From NCBI GenBank assembly GCA_900258555.1, contig LT984854.1:1557681-1602048 (forward strand): a stretch of 44,368 nucleotides of DNA, given 5' to 3'. Position 1 is the stretch's first letter. Each line of letters begins with the position of its first letter. This DNA comes from an uncultured Desulfobacterium sp. GTDB taxonomy: Bacteria > Desulfobacterota > DSM-4660 > Desulfatiglandales > Desulfatiglandaceae. A program made the position numbers and the translations under genes. The notes below the pieces were generated by a model, which saw only the letters and a program-made list of their open reading frames with translations, did no database searches and had not been told where the DNA came from. Below, one piece after another: positions 918 through 42,005 of the stretch.

Positions 918-3284
918 ATGGGCAAACCAGATTATTCAGTAATCGGCAAGAGAAAGCCAAGGATAGACGCCGTAGCAAAAGTAACAGGCGAGGCAACGTA
1001 TACAGATGACATGTCATTTCCAGGGATGCTGTATGCGAAGATTCTCCGAAGTCCCCATGCCCATGCGCGTATTGTCCATATTGACACCGGCCGTGCTGAA
1101 CGTCTTCCCGGGGTAAGGGCGGTAGTAACCGGAAAAGACACGCCGGGCATTGCTTATGGGGCGGTGGATACAGAAAGATATCTTCCCCCTCATATGGCAG
1201 GACAAGTCCCTGTTTACCCTAATGACAAACATCCGCTTGCCATGGAAAAGGTGCGTTACATCGGCGATGAGGTTGCGGCCGTTGCAGCAGTTGATGAGGC
1301 AACGGCCATTGAGGCACTGGAATTGATTGATGTAGTATATGAGACATTGCCCGCTGTCTTTGATCCTGTAACGGCAATGGCAGATGATGCACCTAAGATC
1401 CATGACTTCGCCGAAAAAAATATCTGCAACAAGATCTACTGGGATTTTGGCGATGTGGAAAAGGGTTTTGATAAGGCTGATCATATACGTGAAGACCGGT
1501 TTACCACTGGTCCAGTAACACATACGCCCCTCGAGCCCAGGGGATGCGTAGCGCTGTTTGACCAGTCCGGAAAGCTGACCGTGTGGACTTCAACCCAGTC
1601 GCCCTATATTCGGAGGCAGCAGTTGTCAAAGGCCCTGAATATGTCCGAAAGCAGTATCAGGGTCATCACCCCCTGTGTTGGCGGCGGATTCGGGGGGAAG
1701 GTCTGTTTTTGCGAACCGGATTTTCACGCGGCCCTGCTTTCACGCATAACCAGAAAACCTGTTAAGATCACCTATACGCGAGAAGAGGAATTCATTGCCA
1801 CATCCAGGCGACATCCCATGATTATTGAGCTGAAAACAGGAGTCACAAAAGACGGCAGCCTCACGGCCATCCAGTGCCATATCATCGCTGACGGCGGCGC
1901 ATATACACACACTGGCCCTGTGGTGATGTACCTGGCCGGCGCATTTCTGGCAACCGCCTACCGTTTGCCCAATATCAGGTTCAGCGGTTTAAGGGTATTT
2001 ACCAACAATATGCCGTGTGGTCCCCAAAGGGGCCATGGCGCTGTCCAGCCACGATTTGCTGCTGAGTCTCAACTGGACATGATTGCAGAAGATTTGGGGA
2101 TTGATCCTGCGGAGATCAGATTGAAAAATATCCTGCAGCCTGGAGATACCACAGCCAACAAATTTCTTGTAAGGACATGCGGGTTAAAAGAATGTATCGA
2201 ATTAAGCTCAGAGCAGACCAATTGGAAACAACGTCGTGCAGCGCCTGTACCAGATAAAGGCATCGGCATTTCTGTAGGGGCGTTTATTTCCGGAATGGCC
2301 ATTCCGCCCCATACCTCCAGTGGAGCTTTGGTAAAGCTGCATGAGGACGGGGCAGTAACACTGTTAACAGGGGTAACGGATATCGGTCAGGGCTCCGACA
2401 CCATTCTGGCCCAGATCGTGGCCGACGAACTTGGTGTGGCCTTTGAAGATGTTCGGGTTATATCAAGTGATACAGAACTTACCCCTGTCCATGCAGGCAG
2501 TTATTCCAGCCGGGGTGCTTACTGGGGTGGTAAGGCGGTAAAGGCAGCGGCGCTGGATGCAAAAAGGCAGCTCTTTCAGGTGGCGGCCTCTTTGTTGGAA
2601 GCAAATCCGGATGATCTGGAGGCCCGTGACAGGATGATTTTTGTAAAAGGATCTCCAGACCGGGCAATCCCCACCAAAGGGGTCGTCCTGGCCAGTATGA
2701 TGGAAAGCGACGGAAACCCCATTATGGGAAGGGGATTTTATAAGGCCAATGTAGATTATGTCAACTTTGAGACCGGAGAGGGAAACGTCACCGGGGCCTA
2801 CAGCTTTGAATCTCAAATAGCGGAGGTTGATGTGGATTTCGAATCCGGAAAGGCCAGGCTTTTAAAAATGACCATCGGGCACGACACAGGCACAACGATC
2901 AATCCCATGTCCGTTGAGGGCCAGTTGGAAGGGTCAGTATCCATGGGCATGGGGCAGGCACTGTTTGAGGAATCCGTCAGTAGGGAAGGGCTTATAATGA
3001 ACCCGTCTTTTGTTGAGTACGGACTTCATACGGCTATGGACATGGCAGATGTAGCTTGCATACTGGTGGACACGGAAAATCCCGATGACCCGTTTGAGCC
3101 CAAGGAGGCCGGAGAAGGCACACAAGTGGCCACGCCCTCAGCCATCGCTAATGCCATTTATAATGCAACCGGTGTAAGGATAAAAGAACTGCCCATAACC
3201 CGTGAAAAGATATTAAGGGAATTGAGGATAAGGCACATTAAAATTACATGCCAGGTGGGATCGTCCATAAGCATTTTTGTTTAG
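918..3284 (+). CDS. Molybdopterin-binding large subunit of a xanthine dehydrogenase-family hydroxylase
   Basis: The protein has 788 residues, close to the family norm. The N-terminal a/b-hammerhead domain begins with the segment containing DAVAKVTGEATYTDD and RSPHAHARI. The molybdopterin-binding domains follow, with GGGFGGK, GPQRGHG and a C-terminal EAGEG segment whose glutamate matches the catalytic base of this family. It hydroxylates or dehydroxylates an aromatic, purine or aldehyde substrate using a molybdenum cofactor. The ATG follows an AGAGGAG ribosome site. The last 15 or so residues (rich in I, V and S) extend past the usual end and may be divergent or reflect loss of the native 3' end. 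The partner small subunit lies upstream; no FAD subunit or cofactor-maturation gene is seen nearby. Confidence 0.92.
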   Translation: MGKPDYSVIGKRKPRIDAVAKVTGEATYTDDMSFPGMLYAKILRSPHAHARIVHIDTGRAERLPGVRAVVTGKDTPGIAYGAVDTERYLPPHMAGQVPVYPNDKHPLAMEKVRYIGDEVAAVAAVDEATAIEALELIDVVYETLPAVFDPVTAMADDAPKIHDFAEKNICNKIYWDFGDVEKGFDKADHIREDRFTTGPVTHTPLEPRGCVALFDQSGKLTVWTSTQSPYIRRQQLSKALNMSESSIRVITPCVGGGFGGKVCFCEPDFHAALLSRITRKPVKITYTREEEFIATSRRHPMIIELKTGVTKDGSLTAIQCHIIADGGAYTHTGPVVMYLAGAFLATAYRLPNIRFSGLRVFTNNMPCGPQRGHGAVQPRFAAESQLDMIAEDLGIDPAEIRLKNILQPGDTTANKFLVRTCGLKECIELSSEQTNWKQRRAAPVPDKGIGISVGAFISGMAIPPHTSSGALVKLHEDGAVTLLTGVTDIGQGSDTILAQIVADELGVAFEDVRVISSDTELTPVHAGSYSSRGAYWGGKAVKAAALDAKRQLFQVAASLLEANPDDLEARDRMIFVKGSPDRAIPTKGVVLASMMESDGNPIMGRGFYKANVDYVNFETGEGNVTGAYSFESQIAEVDVDFESGKARLLKMTIGHDTGTTINPMSVEGQLEGSVSMGMGQALFEESVSREGLIMNPSFVEYGLHTAMDMADVACILVDTENPDDPFEPKEAGEGTQVATPSAIANAIYNATGVRIKELPITREKILRELRIRHIKITCQVGSSISIFV

Positions 3285-3352
3285 TATCCTTTCACACAAC
3301 TTGAGCATATTGACCCGAGTCATGCCAATTAGAAGAATTAAGGGGTTTTGAC

Positions 3353-4813
3353 TTATCCGTTCCGCCGGATTCCGCCTTTAGGGGTAAAGGCTGTAACAAC
3401 GAGACCTACAACAGCAGCCGCCAGGGCAGCTACGAATACAGATTCGACAGCACCTGTGAGTGCCCCGCGCAACGTTGCATCTGCTGCGGCTGCACTGGTG
3501 CTAAAAGGCTTCATCAGATCTTGCAGCGACATTACCTCCGGATGTACTCCAGCCGCCTTTAAATTTGCGGCCAGTCTTACACTTAGGATCAGGCCCATGA
3601 CGCTTACGCCCAAAGCGCCCCCGATTACGCGCGAAAACTGAAGGGTCGCCGTAGCCGTGCCAAGCTTATTGCGATCAACACTGTTTTGAATGGCAATCAT
3701 AAAGGCCGGTACAGTCAGTCCCATGCCGACACCCATTAAAACCATGTTAAGCATTACTCGTATAATGGATGTGTCAGTGGTAACAAGGGACATGAATAGT
3801 GCGCCCAGTGTGAGCAAGACCATACCAACCAGGACAATCGTTCGATAGCTATAATGCAATAGGAGCCTGGTGCCTATGACGCTTGAAAAGACCCATCCCA
3901 GCATTTGCGGGGTCAAGGCGCTGCCGGCGACTGTGGCGCTCTTTTCCAGTGATAATTGCACAAACAGGGGCACAAAGGAAGTACTGCCAAACAGGACCCA
4001 ACCGGCGAGTATGCCGTGAGCAATTCCTACTGCAAAGAGACGCTCTCGAAACAGTGTCAGAGGCAAGATCGGGTCAGCCGCTGCTCGTTCGGCAACAACG
4101 AGTGCAATAAAGAGTATCGCGGATGAGATAAGCAATACCAGGCCTGAGAATGTTCCAAGCTGAAAGAGGCTGAGCAGTAGAACCACGACACCGGAGGTCA
4201 AAAGGACGGCTCCAAGGTAATCAATCCGCGGGTGTGCCTTTTTTTCATTCCCCTCTCGCAGGCCGGCCAATAACAGGATGCTTGCCAGACATCCCGGTAG
4301 CAGGTTGACATAGAAAACCCATCGCCAGGATAATTTATCCACCAGAAACCCGCCCAATAGCGGGCCGACTATCGAGGCAAAGCCCCAGACACCTGAAAAA
4401 AAACCCTGCATCCGAGCGCGCTCTTCAAAGGAAAACATATCGCCGATGATGATAAAGGAAAGTGGCATAAGTCCTCCTGCACCCATGCCTTGCAGGGTTC
4501 GAAAGCAAATCAGTTGATCCATGCTATGAGATTGACCGCTGAGCATTGATCCGGTAAGAAAGAGGGCCATAGCGATTAGAAAAATGGTTTTGCGGCCATA
4601 GGTATCTGAAAATTTGCCATATATCGGTATAGTTGTAGTAGAGGCCACCATGTAAGCTGAAAAGACCCAGCTATATCTATTCAAACCGCCCAGTTGGTTT
4701 ACGATAGTGGGCATGGCTGTTGCGACCACCGTCATTTCGATAGCAGACATAAACAGACTGAGCATAACACCGAGGGTGACAATGGCAACTTTACTGTCAG
4801 ACATTTCTTTCAT
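3353..4813 (-). CDS. MFS drug-type exporter, DHA2 (14-TMS) family
   Basis: This 486-residue, highly hydrophobic protein has the layout of EmrB/QacA-type transporters. The first helix ends with the MTVVATAMPTIV segment (motif D-like), the loop GKFSDTYGRK is the MFS motif A, and RTLQGMGAGG matches motif B. About 14 membrane segments can be counted. It would export drugs or other hydrophobic compounds by proton antiport across the inner membrane. The gene converges with the hydroxylase large subunit (69 bp apart). Start could be the first ATG (4811-4813) or a second one three codons later. No periplasmic adaptor (EmrA) or outer-membrane channel is adjacent. A 16-bp palindrome 90 bp upstream may be an operator. 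Confidence 0.9.
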   Translation of the reverse strand: MKEMSDSKVAIVTLGVMLSLFMSAIEMTVVATAMPTIVNQLGGLNRYSWVFSAYMVASTTTIPIYGKFSDTYGRKTIFLIAMALFLTGSMLSGQSHSMDQLICFRTLQGMGAGGLMPLSFIIIGDMFSFEERARMQGFFSGVWGFASIVGPLLGGFLVDKLSWRWVFYVNLLPGCLASILLLAGLREGNEKKAHPRIDYLGAVLLTSGVVVLLLSLFQLGTFSGLVLLISSAILFIALVVAERAAADPILPLTLFRERLFAVGIAHGILAGWVLFGSTSFVPLFVQLSLEKSATVAGSALTPQMLGWVFSSVIGTRLLLHYSYRTIVLVGMVLLTLGALFMSLVTTDTSIIRVMLNMVLMGVGMGLTVPAFMIAIQNSVDRNKLGTATATLQFSRVIGGALGVSVMGLILSVRLAANLKAAGVHPEVMSLQDLMKPFSTSAAAADATLRGALTGAVESVFVAALAAAVVGLVVTAFTPKGGIRRNG

Positions 4814-5512: not shown

Positions 5513-5534
5513 GATTATTTTAGGCTTGCTTATT

Positions 5535-6563
5535 ATGAAGATAACAGACGCCGTAGTCAGTGAGACAATATACCTGGCACTTAAAGGACTTATACTTACA
5601 ATCAGGCTTACACCTCACACAATAGCCATGACCGTTGGGAGAATCCTGGGCCTGCTTTTTTTTCTGGTCAGTCCGTACTACAGGAAAATGGTCGCTCTTC
5701 AGATGAAAGCCGCCTTGGGACCTGTTTACAACAAAAAACTCCTTTTTAAGGCCTTCCTTCACTTCGGCATTCTACCTATTGAGATGATAAAATTCGTCTA
5801 CCTTGATGATGCTGAAGTAAAAAAGAGGCTGGTTGTGCATGGCACAGAGAATGTGGAAGCGGCGCTTAAAACAGGCAGGCCCATCATGGTCATAACCGGC
5901 CATATAGGCAATTGGGAGATCCTTCCCAATATTACCAGATACATAGGCGGAAAGATTCATATTGTAATGGACATCAGGAGAGACCCGAAACAAGAGGGCA
6001 TTATAACCGATATCCGCTCGCACATCCCCGATATTGTCATTCTCCCCCCAAAAGGAGGTGTGATTTCAATGTTAATCGGGGCACTCAAGGAGGGAAAGCG
6101 CGTCGGAATGATGGTTGATCAGAGGCACATGCGCAAGTACGGGCTGGTTTGCGATTTCCTGGGAATGCCTGCACCCACAACGCCGGCACCCGCATTTATC
6201 GCTCTAAAGGCGGATGCATTAATTCAGCCGGTCTTTATGAAGAGAAAAGCGGGGAAGATGTATTCCGTGTTTTTTGAAAAGCCGGTTGACCCCCGCGATT
6301 TTGGAGCATTTGACAAGAACATTGTAAGGTTGAGTGACGGCGCGAAAACAGAGGCCGTTCAAAGATTGAGTAATCATATACAATCTCTGGTAAGCTCTGT
6401 AATAATGGCCACCCCTGATCAGTGGCTTTGGCTGCATGGCCGATGGTTGAGGCGTAAGGACATGAGAGAAGTCATAAAAAAAGGACTTGATTTCAAAACA
6501 ATTGTATCTGAGCAGGCTGAACAGATCAGGCGAGGGAAAATGCCTTCTGAGGATGAAAAATAA
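5535..6563 (+). CDS. LpxL/HtrB-type lysophospholipid acyltransferase
   Basis: The family transfers an acyl chain to a lipid A precursor or a related glycolipid at the inner membrane. Motifs visible are an N-terminal hydrophobic segment (about residues 20-50), the catalytic HxxxxE box in GHIGNWEIL, and a MMVDQRH segment followed by FLGMPAPTTPAPAFIALK, typical of the LpxL/LpxM superfamily. Length (about 342 residues) is close to the family norm of about 300, with a basic C-terminal extension. I chose the ATG at 5535; a TTG three codons upstream is also possible. The gene begins just after the tRNA-Leu terminator and is followed 20 bp later by the DsbA-like gene, so the two may be co-transcribed. 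The precise acceptor is not determinable. Confidence 0.88.
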   Translation: MKITDAVVSETIYLALKGLILTIRLTPHTIAMTVGRILGLLFFLVSPYYRKMVALQMKAALGPVYNKKLLFKAFLHFGILPIEMIKFVYLDDAEVKKRLVVHGTENVEAALKTGRPIMVITGHIGNWEILPNITRYIGGKIHIVMDIRRDPKQEGIITDIRSHIPDIVILPPKGGVISMLIGALKEGKRVGMMVDQRHMRKYGLVCDFLGMPAPTTPAPAFIALKADALIQPVFMKRKAGKMYSVFFEKPVDPRDFGAFDKNIVRLSDGAKTEAVQRLSNHIQSLVSSVIMATPDQWLWLHGRWLRRKDMREVIKKGLDFKTIVSEQAEQIRRGKMPSEDEK

Positions 6564-6583
6564 AATACCGTATGGAGACAATG

Positions 6584-7219
6584 ATGGAATATCCGGTGCT
6601 GGATGTATTTTTTGATTATGTTTGACCCTGGTGCTACTTCATTACTGGACGTATTGATCGCCTTAAAAAGAATTATGAAATTGAGATAAGACTGGTCGCC
6701 TTTCCACTCAGGCCTGATACCCCTCAGGAGGGGACCAGCATTGAAAAAATAATGTTAGATCGAGGCGCTGATCCTGCTGTGGTACAGGCGCGGCTGGAGC
6801 AGGTTGCGAGTCTGGAGGGTCTGGCCTTTGGAAAGCGGTCAATGACTTTCAACAGCCGCCTGGCACAGGAGGTGGGAAAGTGGGCCGAATGCATGGGACG
6901 GGGAGAAGAGTTTCATAATGCTGTGTTTAAGGCATGTCTTGTGGAGGGAAAAAACATAGCCCTTGCCTCCACCTTATTGGATGTGGCCGTCTCAGCAGGG
7001 CTTTCCGAGGTAGAAACCGAAAAGGTGATAGAGAAAAGACAGTTCAAAGGACAGGTGGAATCGGATTGGTCACATTGTAAGATGATGAATGTTATAGTGG
7101 TTCCTACTCTGGCATTGGGAGATAAAACGCTTGCAGGTGCACATCCGTATGAAAAAATGGAAAGGTTTTTAAGAGATAATAATATAAGACATCGTAATAT
7201 AACAGATAAAATATGCTGA
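6584..7219 (+). CDS. DsbA/FrnE-like oxidoreductase, probable selenoprotein (UxxC active site)
   Basis: From the ATG at 6584 (GGAG ribosome site at 6574-6577) the frame reads MEYPVLDVFFDYV, then TGA (6623-6625), then PWCYFITGRIDRL and onward to the stop at 7219, about 211 residues. The TGA falls exactly on the first active-site cysteine of the CPWC motif of DsbA/FrnE-type thioredoxin-fold proteins, and the frame on both sides is family-like (AFPLRP, AGLSEVETEKVI, VVPTLALG). The same window carries the selC tRNA, so recoding as selenocysteine (UPWC) is the best reading. The protein would be a thiol-disulfide oxidoreductase. A conventional gene caller would start at 6752 and lose the active site. 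I could not fold a convincing bacterial SECIS hairpin by eye. The alternative is a nonsense-mutated pseudogene. Confidence 0.8.
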
Positions 7220-13161: not shown

Positions 13162-13259
13162 GGAAGTGGAAAGCTCACTGGTGGGGCTCCCGGACTTCAA
13201 ATCCGGCGTAACGGGCTAAAACCTCGTTAGGTGGGTTCGATTCCCATGCACTTCCGCCA
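13162..13259 (+). tRNA. selC: tRNA-Sec (anticodon TCA); island attachment site
   Basis: The 98-nt gene has acceptor GGAAGTG pairing with CACTTCC, a discriminator G and encoded CCA. The anticodon arm CCGGA-CTTCAAA-TCCGG carries TCA at 13197-13199, there is a long variable arm (CGTAACGGG to CCTCGTTAG), and the T arm has GGTTCGATTCCC. Long arms plus a UCA anticodon are diagnostic of selenocysteine tRNA. Its 3' end is the insertion site of the downstream island. Confidence 0.95.
13236..13259 (+). other. attL core: selC 3' end
   Basis: The segment starts TTCGATTCCCATGCAC and runs to the CCA end. A near-identical segment lies at 44218-44239, with a two-base (TT) difference. Integration into the 3' end of selC by a P4-type integrase preserves the tRNA, which is intact here. 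Confidence 0.75.
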
Positions 13260-13370: not shown

Positions 13371-13420
13371 TGGGGGTATTATTACATTGAAATACCCCCA
13401 AGAATAATTGGATACCCCCA
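13371..13420. repeat. Three TACCCCCA octamers in front of the integrase
   Basis: TACCCCCA occurs at 13393-13400 and 13413-13420, and as its reverse complement at 13371-13378; the outer copies extend to arms TTTTTGGGGGTA / TACCCCCAAAAA. A fourth copy lies downstream of the integrase at 15103-15110. Arm-type integrase sites or an operator for the integrase promoter are plausible roles. Confidence 0.5.
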
Positions 13421-13458
13421 AAAAGGTGAATCTGATAACCCATAGAGGAGAAAACCCA

Positions 13459-14700
13459 ATGCCAAAAAGGATAATCCCGCTTTCTGATGTTAAGGTTAGA
13501 AATGCAAAACCCAAAGAAAAGGATTACAAGCTAACCGATGGCGGTGGTCTTTATCTGCTCGTCTCTTCAACAGGGGGAAAATTATGGCGGATGAAATATC
13601 GCTTCGGAGGCAAAGAAAAGTCGCTTTCTTTCGGATCTTATCCTGTCGTCTCTCTGATCGAAGCACGGCAGCGTCGGGACAATGCAAAGCAATTGCTGGG
13701 AAAAGGCGTCGATCCGTCCATTCATCAAAAAGCTGTGAAAGCGGCAAGGAATGAATCCATAGCAAATAGATTTGAAACTATCGCCAGGGAATGGCACGGT
13801 CACAAACAAGTTGAGTGGTCAATAGATCACGCAGCAACTATCATGACACGCTTAGAAAAGGATATCTTTCCATGGATCGGTGGTACACCTTTAACAGACG
13901 TGACTGCCAGAGATATCAAAGGTGTTGTGGATCGCGTCAAATCCCGTGGGACAATAGAAGCAGCCAGACGATTGTTGACGATTATCAGTCAAGTATTTAC
14001 ATATGCTATTTTCACCGATAGGGCTAACTTTAACATAGCTGTGGGATTAAAAGGTTACCTTCCGCCTTCCAGCAAGACCAAGAAGCACATGGCGGCAGTT
14101 ATAGATCCCAAGGAGTTGGCTCCTCTTCTCCGCGCCATGGACAGCTATCAAGGCGGCTTCGTTGCACAGTGTGCCCTTAAACTGCTTCCTCTCTTCTTCT
14201 GTCGTCCTGGGGAACTACGACATATGGAATGGCACGAAGTTGATTTTGAAGCCGGGCAAGTTAATATCCCAGGCTCTAAGATGAAGATGAAATCAGATCA
14301 CATTATACCCCTTTCGACGCAAGCCATAGCCATATTGAAAGAACTACAACCGCTTACCGGACATGGTAGGTATGTATTCCCATCAACCAGGTCATTTTCA
14401 CGCTGTATGTCGGACAATACTATCAATGCGGCTTTGCGGCGTATGGGTTTCGACAGTGATACGGTAACCGGTCATGGATTCCGGGCAACTGCTCGGACAC
14501 TGCTTCATGAGATCTTACAAGTAAGTCCTCATGTTATAGAAGCGCAACTGGCCCATAGAGTTCCTGATACCCTTGGCGCGGCTTACAATCGAACAACCCA
14601 CATTTCCGAACGCAGGAAGATGATGCAACAATGGTCGGATTATCTTGATGGATTAAAGGTCGGCGCTGTGGTGATACCAATCAGGACAGCAAAGGGGTAA
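13459..14700 (+). CDS. int: P4-type tyrosine recombinase (integrase)
   Basis: This 413-residue protein has the N-terminal DUF4102/Arm DNA-binding domain (LSDVKVRNAKPKEKDYKLTD, then GGLYLLV and LSFGSYPVVSL), a SAM-like core-binding domain, and a C-terminal catalytic domain with the RxxELRHMEW arginine, HGFRATART (HxxR) and the nucleophile region HRVPDTLGAAYNRT. It catalyses site-specific integration and excision at tRNA genes. I chose the ATG at 13459 because AGAGGAG lies 9 bases upstream. The gene is 200 bp from selC, in the usual arrangement for a genomic island, and is likely responsible for the island at 13260-44239. Confidence 0.93.
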   Translation: MPKRIIPLSDVKVRNAKPKEKDYKLTDGGGLYLLVSSTGGKLWRMKYRFGGKEKSLSFGSYPVVSLIEARQRRDNAKQLLGKGVDPSIHQKAVKAARNESIANRFETIAREWHGHKQVEWSIDHAATIMTRLEKDIFPWIGGTPLTDVTARDIKGVVDRVKSRGTIEAARRLLTIISQVFTYAIFTDRANFNIAVGLKGYLPPSSKTKKHMAAVIDPKELAPLLRAMDSYQGGFVAQCALKLLPLFFCRPGELRHMEWHEVDFEAGQVNIPGSKMKMKSDHIIPLSTQAIAILKELQPLTGHGRYVFPSTRSFSRCMSDNTINAALRRMGFDSDTVTGHGFRATARTLLHEILQVSPHVIEAQLAHRVPDTLGAAYNRTTHISERRKMMQQWSDYLDGLKVGAVVIPIRTAKG

Positions 14701-36444: not shown

Positions 36445-37242
36445 TCATAAGTTGCAGACAAAACAGAAATCCTGAGTTTCGTCATCAAGAGCAAAGTCGA
36501 AAACCTCAATGAGAGGCCTGTTTGGGTGATTCTTCTTTTTCAGTTTCATGATCTGTTTGTGGTCTGTAAGTATCTTATCTTTCCTCTCAATCAGTTCAGT
36601 CAACGATTCCTCTTGGTTCCAGTAATATCTCCTGCCATCAGAATGTTCCTGTTCATATTTGACGGCCTCTTCAAAGAGGTCACGGTGGGTCTCGTACAGC
36701 CTTACCCACTCAACTTTTCGCTGAAAGAAGCAGAAAAAACAGCCAGACCTCGAACGCCAACTATAATACCTAGGCGTGCCGATTCCGCTTTCTTCGATAA
36801 TCCTGAATATGTCCTTTTTTACAAGGCCATCCCTCATAAAAGGGAATACCGGCTTAATGTTAGGTTTTGTCGAGATATAACCAACTCTATCTTCGTCCGC
36901 CCTTATAGCAATATAGCTGACAGTCTCATCATCACCGACAAATTTCTCCAGCGGTTCGATCTTTAGCTTCTTTGTGCACCATCTTGACCGGCGATTTGGC
37001 AGGAATCCATCGAATATATCCAACCAATGGTCAAATCCCCTTTGAGCTTCAAGCCGATTGATTTCTTTACCGAGAAGGATTTCTAGCTTATCAATATATT
37101 CATATGTCTCGGGAAGCTCTTTATGTGTATCGCAGAAAAAATACTCGATGTCTGGAATCTCATTTTTCAGATACAATGCAAGAGCAGTGCTATCTTTTCC
37201 GCCCGAAAGACCGAGTATGTGCCGGAACTTCTTTTCAGACAA
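36445..37242 (-). CDS. DndC-like PAPS-reductase-family protein (265 aa)
   Basis: The PP-loop SGGKDST at residues 13-19 identifies the adenylate-forming ATP-pyrophosphatase fold of PAPS reductase, DndC and ThiI-type enzymes. Cysteines in RWCTKK, GCFFCFF and the C-terminal FCFVC could bind an iron-sulfur cluster or carry sulfur. In DndC/SspD this chemistry puts sulfur into the DNA backbone, so a modification role is plausible; assimilatory sulfate reduction is unlikely given the neighbours. Start is a TTG with a perfect AAGGAG at 7 bases, and it overlaps the ATPase end by 8 bp. No cysteine desulfurase, DndD or DndE homologue is in the window, so sulfur would come from a host IscS-type enzyme. 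Confidence 0.85.
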   Translation of the reverse strand: MSEKKFRHILGLSGGKDSTALALYLKNEIPDIEYFFCDTHKELPETYEYIDKLEILLGKEINRLEAQRGFDHWLDIFDGFLPNRRSRWCTKKLKIEPLEKFVGDDETVSYIAIRADEDRVGYISTKPNIKPVFPFMRDGLVKKDIFRIIEESGIGTPRYYSWRSRSGCFFCFFQRKVEWVRLYETHRDLFEEAVKYEQEHSDGRRYYWNQEESLTELIERKDKILTDHKQIMKLKKKNHPNRPLIEVFDFALDDETQDFCFVCNL

Positions 37243-40744: not shown

Positions 40745-41058
40745 ATTAATGTCCCTTTCAGGGATGGTTGAAATCCCTCGCCTTTAGGCGAAGAAAAGTT
40801 AATACATGTCGCTATGCGACGTTATCAACTGGGTGCCCATACCAAAACAGACCTCAAAGTCCACCAAATCTGGCTTCACAAATATCTGAAGCGCGGAATG
40901 GCTGGTGCGGTGGCGATACGGACTCGTGATGTTTTGCACGGACGAAATGATCCAGCAATATTTTCAAAAGCAAGAAGGGGAGCCGATTCCTGATGATAGT
41001 CGATTTGAAATCGACCCCTCATAAAACCCCTCGACTTATAGTCGAGGGTGGTTTAGTT
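40745..41058 (+). mobile_element. IS200-type element with internal deletion (copy 2, complete)
   Basis: This 314-bp unit has the left hairpin CCTCGCC-TTTA-GGCGAAG (40775-40792) and the right hairpin CCCTCGAC/GTCGAGGG (41028-41048) of IS200-type elements. It holds a deleted tnpA on the plus strand. Left junctions of copies 2 and 3 share ATTAAT, perhaps the target; right ends of copies 1 and 2 both finish at GGTTTAGTT. There are no terminal inverted repeats or target duplication, as expected for this family. It is non-autonomous and would need TnpA from another copy. Confidence 0.85.
40814..41024 (+). pseudogene. tnpA remnant inside the IS200-type element
   Basis: The N-terminal 42 or so codons read MRRYQLGAHTKTDLKVHQIW, then up to RTRDVL. 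After a deletion the C-terminal part is in another frame: TDEMIQQYFQKQEGEPIPDD followed by SRFEIDPS and a stop at 41022-41024. The IQQYFQ tyrosine corresponds to the catalytic tyrosine of TnpA, while the HUH motif lies in the missing part. From the ATG the frame actually stops at 40993 after 59 codons. No functional transposase can be made. Confidence 0.85.
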
Positions 41059-41973
41059 CCTTTTTTTGTAATAACTAGTTAGAATTCTTTCAGATATTTT
41101 TAATGGGTCGTCATAGTAGGCGAACTGGATCATCCCAGCGGTGTCGGTTAGGAATATATCCTTGGCCTTCAAAGAGACGGTTTCGATGGCATCGCTAAGA
41201 GAGCTTTCCGTAAGCTTGAAGGCTTGACCAGGGCTCCCGGCATCGTAAAGCAGCCGCGATATGGAAATGGTTCTCGCATCATCCTGGAATGACCGTGCGA
41301 ATTCAAGGCAAGCTGCAACTGTTATTTCAGGCGGCAGGGTTGGCTTGTTTCCGAAATTGAAAGTGAATCTCTTGGAATCAGTGTAAGCATTGATGATCCC
41401 TAGCTCAGTGAAGGGACAATCAAGCGAATCTTCTTTGAGGTTCTTTGGACCGGTCCTTTCGACATACATCCTGATCAGGCAGTTCACATCCTTGTTCAAT
41501 GATGAATCTAGAATCTTTCTGCTCGGAAACTGCCTGTCCCTGTATTCCCGCAAGGAAAATAGGAGATCATGTGGCGAAAAATCGATCTTGTTCAGCTCAT
41601 TAAAGGTGAAAAACCATGCCGGAGCATAGCAGGGTGGCTTAAACAGATTCCAATGAAGCAGCCAAAGAGATGACGGATTCTCAAGAAAAGGGTCCCATCC
41701 GTCTTCACCTAGGAGCTTTTCAGAAAATTCCGTGGGGTTATGGACATATTTTCCATCAGTTCTGGTCTCATCTACGACTTTGAACGCGATGCACCAGTAC
41801 CTGATGGCCTTGACCATGTTTTTCCCGACACCCAAGACCACCGGTGCGGATTCCTTTGAAAATACTGCATTATCCTCTGTCGCCTTGTCAAATCCCTTCT
41901 TCAACCAGCCGAATCTCGGGTGAAAGGTCTCATGGCGCGCAAAAATAGGGTGAATGGTCGCATCCTGTGCCAT
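41053..41973 (-). CDS. DUF4007 family protein (block A)
   Basis: The 306-residue protein begins MAQDATIHPIFARHETFHPR and contains GVGKNMVKAIRYW, LLGEDGWDPFLENPSSLWLL and HWNLFKP, which I recognise as DUF4007, a family found beside PAPS-reductase-like proteins and ATPases in defence islands. A winged-helix-like DNA-binding function is plausible but not shown. I chose the ATG at 41971-41973 because AAAGGAG precedes it by 5 bases; an ATG five codons upstream includes that site. Its stop codon TAA falls in the right end of the IS200-type element, so the original last codons may have changed. It is the first gene of block A. Confidence 0.85.
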   Translation of the reverse strand: MAQDATIHPIFARHETFHPRFGWLKKGFDKATEDNAVFSKESAPVVLGVGKNMVKAIRYWCIAFKVVDETRTDGKYVHNPTEFSEKLLGEDGWDPFLENPSSLWLLHWNLFKPPCYAPAWFFTFNELNKIDFSPHDLLFSLREYRDRQFPSRKILDSSLNKDVNCLIRMYVERTGPKNLKEDSLDCPFTELGIINAYTDSKRFTFNFGNKPTLPPEITVAACLEFARSFQDDARTISISRLLYDAGSPGQAFKLTESSLSDAIETVSLKAKDIFLTDTAGMIQFAYYDDPLKISERILTSYYKKRN

Positions 41974-42005
41974 CAATTCTCCTTTCATTTGTATAAGCTA
42001 TTTTA

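Follow-up and report, generated by a model that had tools for sequence, protein, structure and literature searches.

The locus examined here raises the question of how an in-frame TGA in a DsbA-family gene is read: as a stop, as the remnant of a cysteine codon, or as an amino acid, and if so which one. The gene lies in the window, the whole stretch of 44,368 nucleotides of an uncultured Desulfobacterium sp. that was analysed. Read-through translation of the plus-strand frame 6584–7216 encounters one internal stop only, the TGA of codon 14; the sequence-only reading had named other disruptive mutations in this frame as a refutation, and none lies ahead of the terminal TGA. The features on which the argument turns are as follows.

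6574–6578, plus strand: GGAGA, likely ribosome-binding site, 5 nt upstream of the ATG at 6584
6584–7219, plus strand: predicted selenoprotein coding sequence from read-through translation, 211 codons (residues), stop TGA 7217–7219
6623–6625, plus strand: in-frame UGA, putative Sec codon 14, the U of U-P-W-C; TGA at the same codon in homologues
6632–6634, plus strand: codon 17, predicted resolving cysteine, the C of U-P-W-C; invariant column (C17)
6639–6657, plus strand: putative SECIS hairpin, from consensus fold, compensatory pairs and a constraint on codon choice over codons 19–25
7103–7105, plus strand: proline codon 174 in a V-P-T motif; invariant (P174)
13162–13259, plus strand: tRNA-Sec gene, anticodon UCA, discriminator G73 and then CCA; ARAGORN and Rfam RF01852 (72.4 bits)

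The Pfam profile PF01323 (DSBA) matches residues 6–196 of the read-through product (E 8.9e-28) on both flanks of the UGA, so that the TGA does stand, as first proposed, at the active-site cysteine position with family sequence on either side. The ribosome site claimed ahead of ATG 6584 corresponds to the GGAGA and its 5-nt spacing; two further ATGs, at 6572 and 6581, are in frame. Standard ORF calling returns only 6752–7219 (155 aa) and misses the active site, and the warning that a later start would lose it was thus justified: annotation from ATG 6752 drops this part of the enzyme here and in many relatives.

The UGA is shared widely among homologues. Among the homologous loci from genome_contigs, which were picked by similarity and whose counts are not population frequencies, 79 are readable at codon 14; 78 of them have TGA and one has TGC. 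Sharing on this scale lies far beyond chance. A homologue was matched in 27 of the 99 genomes searched (the organism's own and related ones), 20 of which, its own included, carry a single in-frame TGA at this codon, and a fragment in genome G080 likewise starts with the UGA site. An alignment of Cys with Sec homologues, suggested beforehand as a check, indeed contains both, with TGT or TGC at codon 14 in six homologues (five among the 99 genomes, one from genome_contigs). Loci L033, L034, L035, L040 and L041, all of one genus, have TGT or TGC there, and their Cys paralogue clade (DCTCPWCYF) is limited to that genus of the same family. Both a Sec copy and a Cys copy are present in each of the genomes G029 and G037. 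UGA homologues in other genomes are 44–54% identical to the window protein, which keeps 34 of 36 near-invariant residues and occupies a long branch in the tree (0.89). Desulfobacterota MAGs make up most of the hosts by record title (some titles mislabel their MAGs); the others come from Nitrospirota, Alpha- and Betaproteobacteria, Planctomycetota and SAR324. The hits include the cultivable relatives Desulfonema magnum, Desulfosarcina widdelii and Desulfofustis glycolicus. One homologue (L042/L038, G080:C55) begins at the UGA site, meets TAA soon afterwards and resumes at the C-terminal part, which suggests a decaying copy with an internal deletion.

The sequence downstream of the UGA is constrained as RNA as well as protein. 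The consensus of 78 aligned sequences, 14–32 nt past the UGA, is a stem interrupted by one U-U or G-U mismatch, with 3 bp on either side of it, and capped by a loop of 5 nt. Specifically, the window pairs 6639–6641 with 6655–6657 and 6643–6645 with 6651–6653 around a U-U mismatch (6642/6654), and its apical loop UGGAC (6646–6650) includes two conserved G positions; within the hairpin it departs from the consensus at no more than two positions, both in the loop and both synonymous. Of the 78 sequences, 70 have U-A and 8 have C-G at column pair 21–31, and column pair 19–33 occurs as AU, GC, GU, UG or UA, with zero mispairs in either. Covariation reaches 0.115, compared to 0.051 ± 0.005 after shuffling (none of 500 shuffles reaches this value); when the partners are shifted by 1–3 columns, the proportion of paired cells falls from 91% to 17–53%. 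RNAalifold recovers the hairpin without guidance, and it matches the fold of the window's own minimum-energy structure; folded as a single sequence, it has an unremarkable energy (z –0.3 to –0.7). A competing helix between columns 5–11 and 21–27, preferred by single-sequence folding in several homologues, was rejected because its covariation is no higher than that of the shuffles. Codon choice is restricted over codons 15–25 (mean excess constraint 0.90 bits versus 0.10 elsewhere, Mann–Whitney p = 1e-4), where Arg23 is invariably CGT and the Phe19 codon invariably ends in C. When the window's PWCYFITGRID is recoded synonymously, all six pairs survive in only 1.5% of cases. The element at 6639–6657 is thus predicted to be a bacterial SECIS, the conserved, covarying hairpin 3′ of the TGA that had been sought in homologues, and the family supplies a clean collection of natural SECIS elements in which compensatory changes occur.

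The remaining machinery was located in the same genome, which encodes selA (627 bits), selB (382 bits) and selD (385 bits); the bacterial-selenoprotein gene set selA, selB, selC and selD is complete. The earlier claim of a tRNA-Sec within the window and the proposed search for the three protein genes were both borne out. The selD gene (L011, G000:C3:391262–392185) has an in-frame TGA of its own and is probably a selenoprotein gene as well. With selA present in 87 of 99 relatives, its co-occurrence with the UGA gene carries no information; selA was not seen in two UGA genomes (G004 and G075), both of which are draft assemblies. The NCBIfam model for the Rcas_1661 selenolipoprotein scores 21.4 bits, far below its 190-bit cut-off. 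About 150 bp past the tRNA-Sec gene, a tyrosine integrase begins (13408–14700), which suggests an island inserted at selC; a search of the genome for a second copy of the 19-nt tRNA 3′ end with up to 2 mismatches returned none, bar one unrelated 2-mismatch site. Behind the integrase lie phosphorothioate-type (Ssp) defence genes (20098–41988), with strong matches to SspD (36445–37242, E 1.5e-110) and SspB (41053–41988, E 2.1e-116) and weaker SspC-, SspB- and SspG-like ORFs.

From features each established by sequence analysis (reading frame, family membership, conservation of the UGA and of the hairpin, machinery genes), we infer actual insertion of Sec at UGA 6623, and assign a probability of about 0.92 to the reading that the UGA at 6623–6625 of this cytosolic FrnE-type DsbA-family gene is decoded as selenocysteine. 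In this scheme SelA would load the tRNA-Sec encoded at 13162–13259 with Sec, using selenophosphate from SelD, and SelB would bind the hairpin at 6639–6657 and bring Sec-tRNA to the UGA. In the resulting U-P-W-C selenenylsulfide/dithiol centre, Sec14 would attack and Cys17 resolve, and the centre may reduce or isomerise disulfides in cytosolic substrates.

The predicted structure is consistent with such an enzyme. The best PDB relatives by profile are Deinococcus radiodurans FrnE (E 3.1e-26) and Streptomyces coelicolor SCO1869, and the AlphaFold model (pLDDT 93.3, pTM 0.88) superposes on FrnE 5cp1 with Z 26.9 and rmsd 1.8 over 202 residues; structural scores for YjbH, kappa GST and periplasmic DsbA are well below those for FrnE. 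Profile and predicted structure alike uphold the FrnE-like assignment made at the outset. Residue 14 caps the first helix at its N-terminus, and strand 1 begins at residue 5, which seems to leave too little space for a signal peptide. P174 of the V-P-T motif is presumably the cis-proline expected to face the active site in thioredoxin folds. A DsbA-like thioredoxin domain with a (C/U)PWC site is present, in keeping with FrnE chains as the top PDB matches; the C-terminal CXXXXC is absent, the protein ending in NITDKIC. FrnE proteins are described as cytoplasmic thiol oxidoreductases with reductase/isomerase activity (PMC8945050), and since some lack the C-terminal CXXXXC (PMC8945050), this motif does not define the family. 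Most likely the product is a thiol-disulfide oxidoreductase of the FrnE type that acts in the cytosol and uses Sec as its attacking residue. We infer the disulfide reductase/isomerase direction, the substrate and the cytosolic location, the last from the lack of an N-terminal extension before strand 1 in the model. Gene neighbours give no function because the neighbourhood is not conserved: within 4 kb at the genome_contigs loci, no ORF cluster recurs in more than six loci and none is common with the window, and the lipid A acyltransferase-like ORF directly upstream (5526–6563) was rejected as a conserved partner.

A second UGA-reading system may operate in the same genome. A second selB (selB*, 303 bits, C1:1451941–1453836) lies ~60 bp downstream of a second tRNA-Sec-like gene (selC*) with anticodon UCA, U73-CCA, an 8-bp acceptor stem and a 4-bp T-stem, GG-A-GG, with a bulged A. 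In the corresponding locus (L004, G000:C1:1450441–1455336), the tRNA occupies 3449–3540 and SelB* 1474–3411, both on the minus strand, followed by an XdhC-like ORF and the start of a NifS-like ORF, not by cysS*. Published selC* tRNA-Cys genes, some with UCA anticodons, accompany selB* in Syntrophobacterales and Desulfobacterales and are marked by U73, an 8/4 structure, a T-stem A bulge and a UCA or GCA anticodon (PMC7609411); selC*/selB* has been posited to place Cys at Sec UGA codons under selenium scarcity (PMC9437257). By these sequence marks the second selC-like gene and second selB appear to be a selC* tRNA-Cys/SelB* pair. A selB* orthologue (about 46–71% identity) occurs in 12 of the 99 genomes, this one and 11 others, and ten tRNA genes were recovered next to selB*, nine of which end in U73-CCA and one of which is a base short in the ARAGORN call. 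A CysRS-like frame (L162, G000:C2:803602–804990; 790-aa open frame) scores above the TIGR00435 cut-off at 397.7 bits, is separate from the standard CysRS (L161), and could be a candidate partner of the selC* tRNA-Cys.

The most serious alternative to Sec is accordingly Cys, placed at UGA 6623 by SelB*-delivered selC* tRNA-Cys(UCA). The pair with the traits of PMC7609411 in this very genome and the proposal of PMC9437257 both speak for it, as does the lack of a detected Cys paralogue of the protein in the organism's own genome. However, selB* was not seen in 15 of the 20 UGA-gene genomes, an absence that is weak evidence in drafts but that includes genomes estimated to be 98–100% complete and one in a single contig; the association of the UGA gene with selB* is weak (5 versus 2.4 expected, p = 0.06); the genome holds the G73 tRNA-Sec and full Sec machinery; and hairpins from genomes with and without selB* show no visible difference. 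Sec is favoured over Cys because of the missing selB* and the similar hairpins, and we regard an exclusive Cys reading as highly improbable. A compromise, in which one gene yields two enzyme forms with Sec or Cys at residue 14 according to selenium supply, is more plausible than that, although we still consider it doubtful. Under it, tRNA-Sec/SelB and selC* tRNA-Cys/SelB* would compete at the same UGA and hairpin, and the gene offers a concrete, short, readable target for probing whether selC*/selB* swaps Cys for Sec.

Termination at the UGA, with a 155-aa protein starting at ATG 6752, is what the standard ORF caller delivers. Such a protein would be missing the active site together with strand 1 and the first helix of the fold, whereas conservation continues across the UGA and termination leaves both hairpin and codon constraint unexplained; we hold this to be very improbable. 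Least credible of all is a pseudogene or a sequencing error at a former Cys codon. The long branch of the window sequence might hint at decay, but the same TGA recurs in independent genomes, so that we count this explanation as refuted by the homologues, and the near-invariant residues and the hairpin are intact in a frame with no other stop or frameshift. Selenocysteine thus remains our preferred reading of codon 14.

Comparison with known systems places the gene more precisely. D. radiodurans FrnE (5cnw, 5cp1; PMC8945050) has the same fold, and the protein studied here, like FrnE, probably lacks a signal peptide; the two are about 22% identical, with UPWC here in place of CPWC (Cys, not Sec) there, and the C-terminal CXXXXC of FrnE has no counterpart here. 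That Sec occurs in DsbA-like proteins was stated correctly by the sequence-only reading: UxxC proteins of COG2761 were catalogued in the 2005 Sargasso Sea survey (PMC1088965); Sec DsbA-like proteins were also reported from bacterial genomes, Deltaproteobacteria among them (PMC1794560), and from the GOS survey as 'DsbA 1' (PMC2398784), and a 2026 review (PMC13188914) lists 'DsbA-like form 1'. The gene shares with that group (COG2761/PF01323) the Pfam family, Sec as the first residue of UxxC, a SECIS just 3′ of the UGA and widespread Cys homologues; that it falls in exactly this subfamily is suggested by COG/Pfam, the motif and the similarity to FrnE, and this copy is long-branched. Its sequence clearly marks it as a well-supported further member of a selenoprotein family that has been on record since 2005. 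Insofar as the selC* tRNA-Cys/SelB* system of Mukai 2017 is described through PMC7609411 and PMC9437257, the second selC-like gene and second selB share the features given there, and differ in G1:C72 and in having xdhC- and nifS-like ORFs downstream instead of cysS*. Beyond the known family, the interest of this locus lies in the coexistence of its UGA gene with that selC*/selB* pair.
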